Positions 16,204 to 27,859 of a DNA stretch of 40,103 nt are shown piece after piece; positions within the stretch are counted from its first letter, which is position 1, and every line of letters starts with the position of its first letter. The stretch lies in the IMG/VR virus record IMGVR_UViG_3300008266_000137, positions 1-40,103 of that record; one strand, 5' to 3'. Source of the DNA: a virus. The notes under the pieces are model-generated. The model did not search any database. It worked only from the letters and a program-made list of their open reading frames with translations, and had not been told where the DNA came from. The position numbers and the translations under genes are program-made.

Positions 16204-16587
16204 CTAGAACGGGATTGAATCGTCGTCTACTGTGCCGTCCCAGCTACCCTGAACGGGCGAAGCCTTGGGCGGGGCGTAGCTACCCGATGCGCGATCACTG
16301 CGGGGATGAGGATGAACTACATCAGCGACAACATTGCTGTAGTACTTGTCATCGCGCTTGGTGTGTTCTTGACGTCCAATCACGGTCACCTCCGTCCCTT
16401 TGGTGAGTTCGGCGGTGTTGGCATTAAAGGCAATGACGTTGTGCCATGTTGTCACCTTCGACTCATCTTTGCCGTGATCGGTAGCAATGGAGAATGTCAC
16501 CATGCTTTTGCCTGTCTTTGTGGTGCGCTCCTCAGCATCGCGTCCGAGCTTGCCACGGAGATAAATCTGATTGATGCTGTAAGCCAT
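16204..16587 (-). CDS. ssb: Single-stranded DNA-binding protein
   Basis: The 127-residue protein has the bacterial-type OB fold: an N-terminal strand (NQIYLRGKLGRDAE), the TFSIAT strand, TTWHNVIAF at 46-54, and GTEVTVIGR near 64-72. The C-terminus ends in the acidic tip DDDSIPF, the docking motif for partner proteins such as host repair and replication factors. It binds ssDNA during phage replication and recombination and probably cooperates with the RecT-like annealing protein two genes upstream. Confidence 0.93.
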   Translation of the reverse strand: MAYSINQIYLRGKLGRDAEERTTKTGKSMVTFSIATDHGKDESKVTTWHNVIAFNANTAELTKGTEVTVIGRQEHTKRDDKYYSNVVADVVHPHPRSDRASGSYAPPKASPVQGSWDGTVDDDSIPF

Positions 16588-18951: not shown

Positions 18952-19050
18952 GCTAAAAGAATGAACCCCGCTGTGGTCCAGGTAGCGAATCTGGCAGCGG
19001 GGTCCGGTGTCTCACAGAGCAGCGCCCTTTTGGAGGGAGCGAACATTTTT
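18952..19050 (+). ncRNA. Strong hairpin plus possible terminator; candidate small RNA
   Basis: ACCCCGCTG (18965-18973) pairs perfectly with CAGCGGGGT (18995-19003), with an inner CCAG/CTGG stem, and GCGCT/AGCGC (18952-18956/19020-19024) could enclose it. A weaker CCCT/AGGG hairpin (19025-19037) follows, with TTTTT at 19046-19050. This reads as a structured segment with an intrinsic terminator just before the next promoter. No clear promoter for it was seen, so it may instead be an insulating terminator region. Confidence 0.4.
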
Positions 19051-19053
19051 ATC

Positions 19054-19083
19054 TTGACACGGAAAACGGATCTCGTCTAGTCT
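19054..19083 (+). promoter_or_regulatory. Rightward promoter upstream of the structured RNA and ibrB/ibrA
   Basis: TTGACA (19054-19059), an 18-base spacer and TAGTCT (19078-19083) make a sigma-70-type promoter with a perfect -35 box. The predicted start near 19090 leaves about 384 bases before the first gene. It is divergent from the ribbon-helix-helix promoter. Confidence 0.65.
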
Positions 19084-19089
19084 GAAGTT

Positions 19090-19440
19090 GTCCACAGGGC
19101 TTAGCCGCTCTAAACACCGTTCGATCAGCACTTCGATTATCGACGGTAGCAACACCCAAATTTAGTTCGATAAGGCTAAGGCCAAACCTGAGGACGACTC
19201 TAGCTCGAAAGGGCTAGCGGGCATAAGTCGCCGTAGCAGGTGCCTCCCAGCTCGTTAGGACCGCCGCCGTACAGGACGCACACCAGAGGGTAGGAGTTGC
19301 TACAGGTGCCAGCGCCGAAGATTGCCAAGCTGGATGCCTGAAGGGCCTTGGCTCCGAAGGGTAAAAGGTACTATTTGCTTCCTACGAACATCGTAAGAGG
19401 TTAAGTAGTACCCTGCCTTCTAAACCTTTCACGCAAAGGG
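19090..19440 (+). ncRNA. Large structured RNA / long leader upstream of ibrB
   Basis: No coding frame is supported here, yet the strand is full of pairing. Stems seen: CTTAGCC/GGCTAAG (19100-19106/19174-19180) enclosing an ACCG..CGGT hairpin; CGACT/AGTCG (19195-19199/19226-19230) around CTAGCTC-GAAA-GGGCTAG (19200-19217); GTAGCA/TGCTAC (19233-19238/19298-19303) with CCTCCC/GGGTAGG inside; CAGG-CCAGC/GCTGG-CCTG (19303-19340), whose loop GCCAA (19324-19328) can pair with TTGGC (19348-19352) as a pseudoknot; GGTACTA/TAGTACC (19367-19373/19406-19412) with a TACGA/TCGTA tip; and CCTTT/AAAGG (19425-19439). It could be a stand-alone RNA or a riboregulator. I do not recognise it as a known family. 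Confidence 0.65.
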
Positions 19441-19473
19441 TAAATATAAGAAAACAGGAGAGATTAGAGAGCA

Positions 19474-20631
19474 ATGAATCTAGTAGCAAGTCACATGCTT
19501 TCATCGTTCAAAGAGGTTTGCGAGGATCTAAAGTTTATGCCCCTCGAAGAACAGGTGGAAGTATTAAATGAATTGCGGACCATGCTTCACAAGGCTGGAC
19601 CGTTCGCCAATGAGCCGGTCGATTTGGTTCTTTGGGTGCCGCTTGAAAAGGTTGAGGCAAACGACTACAACCCAAACTCTGTCGCGCCGCCTGAGATGAA
19701 GCTGTTGGAGCGTTCCATTGACGCAGACGGGTACACTCAGCCAATCGTTTCATGGCCCAGGGATGGCGTTTTCGAAGTCGTAGACGGATTCCACCGCAAC
19801 CGCGTCGGTCGAGAGTCCAAGATTGTGAAGAAACGCATTCACGGATTTTTGCCGCTCACGGTGATCCGAGATGAGCAACAGGACAAAAGTGACCGCATGG
19901 CGTCGACTATTCGCCACAATCGAGCGCGTGGCAAGCACAAGGTCGAGTCTATGTCTGACATCGTGATCGAACTCAAGCGGCGCAACTGGTCAGATGAGCG
20001 CATCGCTAGGGATCTCGGAATGGATCGTGATGAGATTCTGCGACTCTGCCAGATTACCGGCCTTGCGGAGATGTTCAGTGACCGTGAGTTTTCCGCATCT
20101 TGGGACGTTGAAGGCAACATCACCGAGGACGATTTTAAGGGCCTGACGGATGATGTCAGCGAGTATGGCGAAGAGGCAGAGCAGTTTCGCACCGTTAACA
20201 CCAGCGACGAGGACCGCGTGTTCCATACCTATGAGAAATGGGAATGCCACAAGGCAGGATTCTACGCCTCTACGCTAAATGGGATGACCAAGGAGGAGGC
20301 AGAACTGAAATACGCTCAATTTTTGGCCGATGAATCGGTATTCGGCGCGGCTCTGGAGCGCGTAACGACAGAATGGAAGCATTCCTGCGAGCATTACCTG
20401 ACAAACAAGGCCATGAACCGCATCGCGTGGCTTGGACAGGCTTCTGTGTGTTTGGCTTTGGGCATTCCGTCATCGTTTCGAGGCGGGTTTAACCTGCTGC
20501 CAGAAGACAAACAGGAATCAGCGAACCAGCTTGCGTTGAAGTACCTGAACAAATGGCTTGTGGCGAACGGTCGCGCTGAAGTCACGATGGAAGAAGCCTA
20601 TTCCGGTGAAAGGCAATCGGTGATCTACTAA
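19474..20631 (+). CDS. IbrB-like ParB/Srx-domain protein
   Basis: The 385-residue protein has an N-terminal helical lead, then a ParB/sulfiredoxin-like domain (about residues 50-150): the DYNPN box at 64-68, GYTQPIV at 86-92 and VVDGFHRNRVG at 102-112, the equivalent of the ParB DGxHR nucleotide-binding box. A helix-turn-helix-like region follows (about 170-195, WSDERIARDLGMDRDEILRL). Its immediate coupling (TAATG) to a PAPS-reductase-family gene is the IbrB-IbrA arrangement known from E. coli prophage-like elements, where the pair controls gene expression. A plasmid-type partition role is not supported. The role in this phage is unknown. An AGGAG lies 13 bases before the ATG. Confidence 0.78.
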   Translation: MNLVASHMLSSFKEVCEDLKFMPLEEQVEVLNELRTMLHKAGPFANEPVDLVLWVPLEKVEANDYNPNSVAPPEMKLLERSIDADGYTQPIVSWPRDGVFEVVDGFHRNRVGRESKIVKKRIHGFLPLTVIRDEQQDKSDRMASTIRHNRARGKHKVESMSDIVIELKRRNWSDERIARDLGMDRDEILRLCQITGLAEMFSDREFSASWDVEGNITEDDFKGLTDDVSEYGEEAEQFRTVNTSDEDRVFHTYEKWECHKAGFYASTLNGMTKEEAELKYAQFLADESVFGAALERVTTEWKHSCEHYLTNKAMNRIAWLGQASVCLALGIPSSFRGGFNLLPEDKQESANQLALKYLNKWLVANGRAEVTMEEAYSGERQSVIY

Positions 20632-21908
20632 TGGGAATCAAGTGCTATCGGGATGTGAACGTGCTGGATGCGGCACGAAACCGGATCGCAACCACATTCG
20701 ACACAGTAGAACGTGTATTCGTGGCGTTCTCTGGCGGCAAGGATTCATCGGTAATGCTTCATTTGGTCATGGATGAGGCAATCAAGCGGGGGCAGCGTGT
20801 AGCGGTCATGTACATCGACTTTGAAGCGCAGTATGCCGAGACGGTGACACACGTTGAAGAGATGTTCGAGCTTTACAAGGATCACATTGATGCTCACTGG
20901 GTGTGCATTCCGATGCTGCTACGAAACGCGGTTACCAACTATGAGCCGCGCTGGACCTGCTGGGATGAGACAAAGAAACATCTTTGGATCAGGGAAAAGC
21001 CGACGCAGCACAAGGGCCTCGAAGACTATCCGTTTGCGCTGCCAGAGATGGAGTTTGAGGAGTTTGTGGTGTTGTTCGCAAAGTGGTACGGCGAGGGCAA
21101 GAAAACAGCGGGATTCATTGGAATCCGTGCTCAGGAATCACTTCACCGATATTGCGCGGTTGCCACATGGGAGAAACGTGACCTGATGCTTAACGGTCAT
21201 CGCTGGACAACCAAGATCACGGATCAAGCGTACAACGTGTACCCGATCTATGATTGGCTGACTACGGACATTTGGACATACCACGCCAAATACCCGTGGA
21301 AGCCGCATAACGCCATATACGACAAAATGCAGATGGCAGGTGTTCCACTTTCGCAGCAACGATTGTGTCAGCCGTTTGGAGATGACCAGCGCCGGGGCTT
21401 GTGGCTATATCACATTCTCGAGCCGCAAACTTGGTTCAAGCTGGTGGTTCGCGTGAACGGTGCTAACTCTGGAGCGTTGTACGTGGAAGAAAACGGCAAC
21501 ATCAGCGGGTACAACAAGATTACCAAGCCCGACAATCACACATGGAAGAGCTTCTGCAATCTGTTGCTTCAGACGATGCCGAAGAAAACCAGGGAGCATT
21601 ACGTGTTCAGGTTCAAGAAGTTTATCCACGGCTGGCATGATCGCGGCTACACTTCGATACCCGAAGAGGCTCCCCCAGAGCTTGAGGCGAAGTGCTGGGC
21701 ACCGTCATGGCGTCGCATGTGCAAGGTTCTTCTACGGAACGACTACTGGTGTAAGGGATTGGGGCAGACGCAACCGAAGTCTGACGCATGGATGAAATAC
21801 AAGGGAATCGTGAAGGAGAAAAAAGGAAATGTTGGCAATACCGACAGCGGAATCGCTGAAGAGGATAGAATCGCTGGTACAGAAGAAGGAGCAGAGAATG
21901 CCGCTTAA
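20631..21908 (+). CDS. IbrA-like PAPS-reductase-family protein with DUF3440-type C-terminus
   Basis: The 425-residue protein has a PP-loop ATP-binding motif, FSGGKDSS, at residues 33-40, then YIDFEAQYAETV, an RxxES-HR block (GIRAQESLHR), and PIYDWLTTDIW, all typical of phosphoadenosine-phosphosulfate-reductase-fold proteins of the IbrA type. The second half (LCQPFGDDQRRGLW, WFKLVVRVNGANSG) matches the DUF3440 region by eye. The catalytic Cys motif of true PAPS reductases was not seen, so sulfonucleotide reduction is doubtful; adenylation or sulfur transfer chemistry, as in DndC relatives, is possible. It is translationally coupled to the ParB-domain protein. Confidence 0.82.
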   Translation: MGIKCYRDVNVLDAARNRIATTFDTVERVFVAFSGGKDSSVMLHLVMDEAIKRGQRVAVMYIDFEAQYAETVTHVEEMFELYKDHIDAHWVCIPMLLRNAVTNYEPRWTCWDETKKHLWIREKPTQHKGLEDYPFALPEMEFEEFVVLFAKWYGEGKKTAGFIGIRAQESLHRYCAVATWEKRDLMLNGHRWTTKITDQAYNVYPIYDWLTTDIWTYHAKYPWKPHNAIYDKMQMAGVPLSQQRLCQPFGDDQRRGLWLYHILEPQTWFKLVVRVNGANSGALYVEENGNISGYNKITKPDNHTWKSFCNLLLQTMPKKTREHYVFRFKKFIHGWHDRGYTSIPEEAPPELEAKCWAPSWRRMCKVLLRNDYWCKGLGQTQPKSDAWMKYKGIVKEKKGNVGNTDSGIAEEDRIAGTEEGAENAA

Positions 21909-23330: not shown

Positions 23331-23560
23331 CACGGACCGAAGCTGAAGCACTGATGACGCGGATAGGGTGCATTGATACGCGGAATGTGGCATGTTTGCA
23401 CATTGTTTATGCAAGGTACTGCCATGAGCGAGGGCTAGGGAACATGCAGAAATTGCCCGTGGCTGAAGCATATGCGCTACTAGTAGCCGCTATCAAAGAA
23501 GATAAAGGCAAAGTCCCACAACAACAAGCACTATTCAATACAAGCAGGAGCGCATTATGA
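23327..23560 (+). CDS. Small hypothetical protein
   Basis: The 77-residue product (MTRTEAEALMTRIGCID) is helical with no known motif. The start at 23327 is chosen because it overlaps the preceding TGA; the longer frame from 23219 would read through the micro-membrane gene. Its own stop overlaps the HNH start. Confidence 0.6.
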   Translation: MTRTEAEALMTRIGCIDTRNVACLHIVYARYCHERGLGNMQKLPVAEAYALLVAAIKEDKGKVPQQQALFNTSRSAL

Positions 23561-24264
23561 GGCGAGATTTTGCAAGCGTTATGTGGATGCCATTGCGCGA
23601 ACGCTTTGAGCTTCAACACACAAAAGAACCCATGTCTGGATGTTGGCTTTGGATGGGAAGTGAAAGCGGCGGGTATGGGGAAATTAGTAATAACGGCAAA
23701 AGAATCAAAGCGCATCGAGCTTCGTTGATTCTTGATGGGCAAGACCCAACAGGCAAAGTTGTCATGCACAAATGCGACAACCGCCTATGCGTTAACCCGC
23801 ATCATTTGCAAATCGGCACGTATCTGGAAAACATGCAGGATGCCGTGAAGAAGCGCAGAATTGCACATGGTACGAGATGTAAAAAAGCAAAGCTAGACGA
23901 GCAAAAAGTTTTATTGATCCGAACTTCAAACCTTTCGTTTAGTCGGCTAGGGCGCATGTATGGAGTGAGTAGTAACAGCATCAGATTGATAAAACTTGGA
24001 AAATCTTGGGCGCATGTAGGCGGTAAAATTGGCGCAGATAAAAACATCGGATCTCGTCACGGGCAATCAAAATTAAATGAAAAGTGGGTCAAAGAAATCT
24101 TAGCTTCAACCGAAGGCTTAAAGGCTTTAGCCAATCGTTACAACGTTTGCAAACAGACAATCCATAACATACGAACCAAGAAAATTTGGAAGCATATCGA
24201 GCAACCCCCAGCGGTCAAGCAGGGGCGCTGTTTGAGGAGAAGGGAGCGGACCTGTGAGCCATGA
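23557..24264 (+). CDS. HNH homing-type endonuclease
   Basis: The 235-residue protein has CWLWMGS at residues 29-35, GGYGEI at 38-43, KAHRAS at 51-56, and the zinc/His-Asn block HKCDNRLCVNPHHL at 71-84, then ENMQDAVKKR. This is the HNH type found in phage intron-free homing genes. Two C-terminal repeats resembling DNA-binding helix-turn-helix modules follow (KLDEQKVLLIRTS... and KLNEKWVKEILAS...). The gene is visibly more AT-rich than its neighbours, pointing to recent acquisition. It is inserted between small genes without breaking them. Confidence 0.88.
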   Translation: MRRDFASVMWMPLRERFELQHTKEPMSGCWLWMGSESGGYGEISNNGKRIKAHRASLILDGQDPTGKVVMHKCDNRLCVNPHHLQIGTYLENMQDAVKKRRIAHGTRCKKAKLDEQKVLLIRTSNLSFSRLGRMYGVSSNSIRLIKLGKSWAHVGGKIGADKNIGSRHGQSKLNEKWVKEILASTEGLKALANRYNVCKQTIHNIRTKKIWKHIEQPPAVKQGRCLRRRERTCEP

Positions 24265-24511
24265 TTTCCAGTTTGGCGATGAGCGCAAGATCTTCTACGA
24301 TGAGGTGGAAGATGGCATGGTTGTCACGGTGCATATTGCCGACAGCGGAGCGGTGCGGGAAGTAGACCCACGCACAAGAAAAACGCGGGGTGCCTTGCAG
24401 CATTTCCGCGTTATTGGGGATTCAGCACCATATACGCTGCAAGCTATACAAGCACCCGCAGACGGTGCGGAGGTTGTACGGCTGTGCGTTGGTAGCTGGT
24501 TCTGCGCCTAG
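24254..24511 (+). CDS. Hypothetical protein, GTG start
   Basis: The 85-residue product starts at a GTG eight bases after GGGAG and overlaps the HNH gene end by 11 bases. It is a mostly beta protein (VVTVHIADSGAVREVD, YTLQAIQAP) of unknown role. It is the last rightward gene of the early operon; its TAG shares the CTAG tetranucleotide with the stop of the convergent gene. Confidence 0.6.
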   Translation: MSHDFQFGDERKIFYDEVEDGMVVTVHIADSGAVREVDPRTRKTRGALQHFRVIGDSAPYTLQAIQAPADGAEVVRLCVGSWFCA

Positions 24512-24705
24512 CACTTATGCCCACGGGCCTCTGCTCTTTTAGCCGTCATTTCTCCACAGGGGCACCGGGGAACGTTTGTTCGGGCTTTGCGGGCAATACC
24601 GCTCTTAGCTCCGTTGCGGCTTGCCCATGCGCTTCGTAGGGCCTCGGGTGAGGCTGTGAGGATGGCTGCTACTTGCTCGGCGTGTGGGAGGATACTCAGA
24701 TTCAT
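24508..24705 (-). CDS. Small hypothetical protein with CPCGEMT motif
   Basis: The 65-residue product begins MNLSILPHAEQ and ends with PRCPCGEMTAKRAEARGHKC, a C-terminal motif I have seen in other small phage and mobile-element proteins of unknown function; it may bind zinc. The start at 24705 overlaps the preceding stop (ATGA). It converges with the rightward operon. Confidence 0.62.
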   Translation of the reverse strand: MNLSILPHAEQVAAILTASPEALRSAWASRNGAKSGIARKARTNVPRCPCGEMTAKRAEARGHKC

Positions 24706-26278: not shown

Positions 26279-26341
26279 TACTAAAGATGAGGGGTAGCGA
26301 AAAAAAAGATGTGGGGTGAACTATCCGGTAATTCCGGATGG

Positions 26342-26370
26342 TTGCATGTTGAAAAAAGTTCGCGTACTCT
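26342..26370 (+). promoter_or_regulatory. Possible promoter for the second structured RNA
   Basis: TTGCAT (26342-26347), a 17-base spacer and TACTCT (26365-26370) form a moderate promoter directly before the structured stretch. The predicted start is near 26377, just inside the outer stem, so a start a few bases earlier would be needed for full pairing. Confidence 0.4.
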
Positions 26371-26505
26371 GTGAGCAGGATCGGCCACGCTTGCATAGGT
26401 GGTACGGCTACCTGGGGGATGCTGGCAACCCGAGAGGGAGCGGCCAGCGAAAGCGCTAGGAAGTAGCAGCGCTGGAAACTACTGGGCTAGGCTCACAAGG
26501 CTCCC
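26371..26505 (+). ncRNA. Structured pseudoknotted RNA candidate upstream of the late promoter
   Basis: No gene is supported between 26279 and 26600. Stems on this strand: GTGAGC/GCTCAC (26371-26376/26491-26496) enclosing the rest; AGGTGG-TACGG-CTACCT (26397-26413) extended by GCAT/ATGC and GCCA/TGGC; CCC-GAGA-GGG; CCAGCG-AAAG-CGCTAGG (26444-26460); AGTAG/CTACT (26462-26466/26479-26483) with a palindromic CAGCGCTG loop; and GGGAGC/GCTCCC (26436-26441/26500-26505), which crosses the outer stem and makes a pseudoknot. It does not match a ribozyme or riboswitch core I know. It could be a small RNA, a riboregulator of the late genes, or packaging-related. Confidence 0.6.
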
Positions 26506-26565
26506 GAGACACCTAATGCGATACTCCAACTGTGGAGGGGGTAGGGGGTGCCATTTCTGCGAGCA

Positions 26566-27495: not shown

Positions 27496-27677
27496 TGCCA
27501 GTAGCCGCCGTAGTGCCATCATTGCTCGCTCTGCCATTGCGTTCCGTTGTGTGTGATTACTGCCGCAGCGAATGGAACAGGCAGCTAGGCCGCAAACACT
27601 GCCCAAGCTGTGGCGCAACGCTCGATTACGTAAAGGGCATTCAGGATATGGCGGATAAACAGAAGGGGCAAGAATGA
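27495..27677 (+). CDS. Small zinc-ribbon protein
   Basis: The 60-residue product has CDYC and CPSC separated by about 13 residues, a four-cysteine zinc ribbon. It lies between the terminase subunits, a common place for such small proteins. Its start overlaps the TerS stop (TAATG) and its end overlaps the next ATG. Confidence 0.65.
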   Translation: MPVAAVVPSLLALPLRSVVCDYCRSEWNRQLGRKHCPSCGATLDYVKGIQDMADKQKGQE

Positions 27678-27859
27678 ACCCAACAGCCTTCCGCATTGCC
27701 CACGCCTCGCCCTTAGCCATCCAGCGTCTCATTGCCCTAGATTGCCGCAACTGTCCGAAGTGCGGTACTCGCCACTATTACCCGCAGGCTCAATGCCGCA
27801 AATGCCAAGCCAAGTTGGTGACGGCCAAACGGGGTAAGCGTGACCACGGCAATACCTGA
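27674..27859 (+). CDS. Second small zinc-ribbon protein
   Basis: The 61-residue product has CRNCPKC and CRKC, a likely zinc ribbon, and a basic C-terminus. It resembles the preceding gene in size and Cys spacing, perhaps an old duplication. It overlaps the large terminase start by 20 bases. Confidence 0.65.
   Translation: MNPTAFRIAHASPLAIQRLIALDCRNCPKCGTRHYYPQAQCRKCQAKLVTAKRGKRDHGNT

Follow-up and report, generated by a model that had tools for sequence, protein, structure and literature searches.

A putative structured 5' leader upstream of the ibrB-ibrA gene pair in a phage with a P22-like head module

The window analysed here is the whole of a virus record of 40,103 bases, whose head module (Sf6-type small terminase, large terminase, portal and scaffold) is P22-like. 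Between two divergent operons lies a gap of 389 nt, window positions 19085-19473, to which we refer as the leader. To its left, a set of small leftward genes runs from 18889 down to 16204, and to its right an ibrB-like and an ibrA-like gene are read rightward:

16204-16587, in the leftward gene set: single-strand binding protein gene
19054-19081, + strand: candidate sigma-70-type promoter, read from the sequence (TTGACA, 16 nt, TCTAGT)
19474-20631, + strand: ibrB-like ParB-domain gene, the first after the leader (phrog_2159, E 9.9e-70)
20631-21908, + strand: ibrA-like PAPS-reductase/DUF3440 gene (Pfam PF11922 and PF01507; phrog_2302)

Within 19085-19473 no open reading frame of at least 50 aa was found on either strand, nor did a codon-usage model built from the genes of the window itself call a credible gene there. 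These roughly 390 nt are therefore taken as genuine intergenic or leader sequence, bearing out the first-pass annotation, which had described about 380 bases without a supported gene. The short in-frame starts present in the leader form no credible gene, and a protein reading was rejected, the coding signal being absent in every frame. Gene density elsewhere, previously described as near complete, is high but falls short of that, with other gaps at 27496-27839 and 26397-26531; the first of these, 344 nt long, separates the small and large terminase genes.

Regarding the start of rightward transcription, the -35 element TTGACA at 19054-59 is perfect, and the -10 element TCTAGT, placed after a 16-nt spacer, matches at four of six positions. 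A consensus promoter scan in which A was required at the second position of the -10 element did not call this site. The promoter had earlier been rated as good; given a perfect -35 set against a weak -10 and the missing call, plausible is the better word. If the candidate promoter is used, transcription would be expected to start near 19086-19088 and, as a consequence, the first transcribed bases would fall in the predicted helix 19086-93/19192-99. On the + strand, the stretch from the promoter to ibrB contains no called terminator. On the - strand (window 18962-19003), a hairpin formed by ACCCCGCTG/CAGCGGGGT and accompanied by a T-rich tail lies immediately upstream of the leftward genes; it looks like a weak terminator that may insulate them from antisense leader transcripts.

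The elements that can be drawn in the leader, together with the ribosome-binding site that ends it, are the following:

19085-19200, + strand: 5' domain of nested long-range helices (z -3.2, 1 of 200 shuffles as good)
19086-93/19192-99, 19095-98/19187-90 and 19100-106/19174-80, + strand: helices of the 5' domain, predicted fold
19116-20/19143-47, + strand: inner hairpin of the 5' domain, predicted fold
19200-19217 (19200-206/19211-217), + strand: 7-bp hairpin with a GAAA loop, from the sequence and the predicted fold
19218-24/19334-40, 19229-39/19297-308 and 19309-13/19329-33, + strand: possible three-way junction, structure unsupported
19324-28/19348-52, + strand: possible pseudoknot GCCAA/TTGGC, structure unsupported
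19355-19421, + strand: strong imperfect hairpin of about 25 pairs, no U tract (z -6.1, 0 of 200 shuffles as good)
19367-19412, + strand: hairpin within this interval, predicted fold
19456-19462, + strand: Shine-Dalgarno-like AGGAGAG before ibrB, from the sequence

Folded as a whole, the 389 nt reach a minimum free energy of -128.7 kcal/mol (z -2.6, 3 of 100 shuffles as good), and 350 nt of the leader give a z of -2.3, a value equalled or bettered by 6.7% of 350-nt windows from the same phage. The complementary strand over the leader folds with a z of only -0.7, and the antisense of the 67-nt hairpin 19355-19421 with -4.0 as against -6.1 in sense; such a bias of sense over antisense is expected of an RNA and not of DNA palindromes.

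Two elements fold well beyond chance. At the predicted 5' end, the domain 19085-19200 is more stable than chance on the sense strand, its outer helix having a pair probability of 0.97. At the other end, the hairpin 19355-19421 stands 53-119 nt upstream of the ibrB start codon, and when 5340 windows of 67 nt across the genome were scanned, one covering it had the third-best z of the candidates retained. From there, 19422-19473 runs directly into the ibrB ribosome-binding site, whose surroundings are A-rich, and then into the start codon.

The middle of the leader behaves differently. The segment 19200-19341, which includes the GAAA hairpin, folds no better than chance (z -0.6, 48 of 200 shuffles as good), and its predicted fold changes when the ends are moved, so that a fixed fold may not be needed there. 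The GCCAA/TTGGC pairing had been put forward as an H-type pseudoknot, and is taken here as a possible but unsupported one: the segment 19304-19356 has a z of 0.0 in nested folding only, with 91 of 200 shuffles as good, and two H-type pseudoknots of 5+5 Watson-Crick pairs are possible in the region, at least one occurring in 16% of shuffles. The gapless order of helices (19192-99, 19200-217, then 19218-24, and 19305-08, 19309-13...19329-33, 19334-40) looks attractive in the predicted fold of this one sequence. Thus, a structured RNA read rightward before ibrB is plausible, given the non-coding character, the sense-strand bias and the two elements beyond chance, whereas the large, pseudoknotted RNA initially described, taken as one global fold, lacks support: neither the middle nor the pseudoknot segment folds better than its shuffles, and the middle fold shifts with the chosen ends. 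All the stems then named can be drawn in 19085-19473, though their support differs from stem to stem.

Other structured stretches were noted in the genome. The window segment 26285-26535, gene-poor and lying between divergent open reading frames, holds several hairpins (z -1.4 overall, -2.7 for its first half) and has no Rfam match. Short stretches of about 28-37 nt that match its hairpin GAACTATCCGGTAATTCCGGATGGTTGCATGTT (26316-26347) at 85-97% occur in 112 phage records. These are mainly enterobacterial, and some carry an annotation as EaA or hypothetical genes; a promoter-like site (TTGACA, 17 nt, TATATT) lies nearby on the - strand at 26278-26250. Further to the left, an HNH endonuclease gene (23557-24264) is followed by a stretch predicted to fold strongly (window 23557-24700).

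The search for relatives of the leader covered both sequence and structure. A covariance-model search of Rfam, including riboswitches, GOLLD, ROOL, HEARO, group I/II introns, RNase P and 6S, returned no match at gathering score in the window and none on the sense strand up to E = 10, the sole match being NEAT1 noise (E 6.4) on the other strand; the lack of resemblance to known RNAs remarked upon in the first-pass annotation is thereby confirmed. ARAGORN found no tRNA or tmRNA, and blastn of the leader against phages, plasmids and E. coli genomes gave no match. No homologue was found in about 360 fetched loci (80 for ibrB, 40 for ibrA, 80 viral and 80 bacterial for terminase, and those of neighbour genes), and the closest terminase relatives, viral and bacterial, show neither synteny around the leader nor similarity to it. 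The 245-aa leftward protein retrieved no relative as a query, and the concatenated neighbour proteins retrieved a single contig, which ends before the leader region (L120).

Exact leader patterns occur in 71, 1 and 9 IMG/VR viral contigs, and one such pattern had no match in genome contigs; the six loci inspected (L271, L365, L367, L361, L363 and L368) were rejected as homologues because open frames run through the match and the flanks cannot be aligned. Two single-sequence covariance models were applied to loci totalling about 3.4 Mb; in addition, R1 (19200-19340) was run against 396 Acidobacteriota genomes, and R2 (19086-19199) against 398 Pseudomonadota genomes and 50 whole virus records. 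Nothing credible emerged in the loci, the 50 virus records or the roughly 800 bacterial genomes; the best outside match, at 30.9 bits, lies inside a sulfatase-like reading frame and was discarded. Sequence searches of the same 396 Acidobacteriota and 398 Pseudomonadota genomes gave short matches only, all in long open frames, and the Acidobacteriota blastn matches (E 0.002-0.01) were rejected on this ground. These searches leave the absence of relatives unproved, since single-sequence models detect weakly and metagenome contigs lay outside the search. Relatives of the large terminase were found in Bryobacterales (Acidobacteriota) assemblies (L272, L274 and L290, at 68%, 60% and 49%), a possible hint at the host group, and in a Pelomonas assembly (L273, 65%).

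A functional tie between the leader and the ParB/PAPS-reductase pair, as had been suggested, is not upheld by the relatives of these genes. The leader sequence is absent upstream of ibrB/ibrA in all of about 118 related loci, most of these genes starting within about 50 nt of another gene; in 107 loci, ibrB is separated from the preceding gene by a median of 36 nt, and by more than 250 nt in 16 of them. Even the closest relatives (L081, 81%/92%; L105, 71%/84%; L001, 69%/80%) have other genes upstream and no leader. Those longer upstream gaps that were folded resemble neither the leader nor each other, and none beats the leader when each is compared with its own shuffles. Four related contigs (L045, L046, L099 and L109) carry about 1.6 kb without a long open reading frame before ibrB. 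In the papers searched, no leader RNA for ibrB/ibrA was reported, and no directly comparable phage leader was found. Missing before ibrB in all relatives, the leader is not needed for ibrB/ibrA in general and, since the relatives do without it, a sulfur-responsive or ibrBA-specific leader appears unlikely.

Taken together, stable sense-strand stems in a non-coding stretch between the inferred promoter and the ribosome-binding site are what a structured 5' leader would present. We tentatively favour, somewhat short of an even chance, the view that the rightward ibrB-ibrA transcript opens with a structured 5' untranslated leader that acts in cis and is specific to this lineage. In a similar, not quite even measure, we infer that its likeliest role would be the cis-control of mRNA stability, processing or translation. 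Paired 5' ends slow 5'-end-dependent mRNA decay, as in the ompA type, and RNase III cuts hairpins of this sort in the early mRNAs of lambda and T7. In this regard, a transcript beginning near 19086-19088 would have its 5' end locked in the 19086-93/19192-99 helix, which may slow 5'-end-dependent decay as in the ompA leader, and the hairpin 19355-19421 could be a target of RNase III or other processing, or an insulator, with the A-rich ribosome-binding site kept accessible. Counting against this reading are the weak -10 element, the lack of a homologue in the collections searched and the absence of the leader before ibrB in the relatives.

Among the alternatives, the one that survives best, unlikely yet deserving real weight, is that the region is mostly unselected spacer left before ibrB by mosaic recombination, with one real hairpin and the other stems accidental. 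The chance-level middle fits this explanation, as do the modest rank of the whole region, within the top 7% of windows from this phage, and the lack of a relative in anything searched, the relatives of ibrB being without this leader. However, the z values of the 5' domain (-3.2) and the 3' hairpin (-6.1) and the preference for the sense strand speak against it, and 390 idle bases are seldom kept by phages of such size.

Improbable, and more so than the spacer, is an independent RNA of small or medium size (about 335 nt, 19086-19421), cut from the leader or ending there and acting in trans on host or phage targets. The compact multi-stem layout, with a closed 5' end and a strong 3' hairpin, would suit such a molecule, but no terminator follows the hairpin, no relative is conserved, and 19422-19473 passes straight into the ibrB ribosome-binding site. 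A more ambitious reading is a hitherto unknown phage RNA, some 335 nt long, in which a closed 5' end would be combined with a GAAA hairpin, a three-way junction of flush helices and a pseudoknot. It would act in trans, or switch in response to a ligand or protein, and would be too rare or fast-evolving for relatives to appear in the collections searched; we give it a low probability.

About as improbable is an antiterminator resembling HK022 put, in which RNA at the start of the early transcript alters RNA polymerase so that later terminators are read through. In its favour, the leader would be transcribed first in an operon diverging from the leftward genes; however, HK022 put is about 65-70 nt long, with two stem-loops, and sits at both early promoters, whereas the present leader is far longer, has no second copy in the window and faces a leftward side almost without a leader. 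A DNA-level control site in the divergent region (operators or a replication origin, for instance the TTCGAT repeats at 19119, 19132 and 19165) is equally doubtful: GTTCGATMAG occurs twice exactly in the leader and 10 times in the window against 4.4 expected (one mismatch), but just two or three copies fall in the leader and others lie within genes, folding is biased to the sense strand, and there is no A+T-rich origin-like stretch.

Where phage early operons carry long structured leaders, these can govern how takeover genes are timed, processed and kept stable, and in uncultured phages most such leaders are uncharted. A new RNA class would follow if homologues appear and their stems covary; a striking list of stems from one sequence does not establish one. 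With no relative found, the results do not allow a new pseudoknotted RNA class to be claimed, nor a link to ibrB/ibrA, the latter tie not being general in the available data.

Sulfur-metabolism riboswitches (the SAM family and others) are alike in place, since the leader precedes a PAPS-reductase-like gene pair, but differ in that the leader has no Rfam match, is not conserved before related genes and offers no definable conserved core. GOLLD, ROOL and HEARO are likewise phage-borne, non-coding and built of several stems, whereas the leader lacks both an Rfam match and conservation and has a middle fold at chance. The leader would resemble the put RNA of HK022 as the first RNA of an early promoter that has a divergent partner; it differs in being several times longer, present in a single copy and without a known relative. 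Nearest in kind are the ompA-type stabilisers and the RNase III-processed early leaders of lambda and T7. The leader is longer than the ompA leader elements, no sequence relationship to the ompA-type, lambda or T7 leaders is known and a stabilising or processing role here is putative, but it shares with them a non-coding leader, a paired predicted 5' end and a strong hairpin upstream of the ribosome-binding site. The best reading of this locus is thus a phage structured leader ordinary in kind, probably a lineage-specific example.
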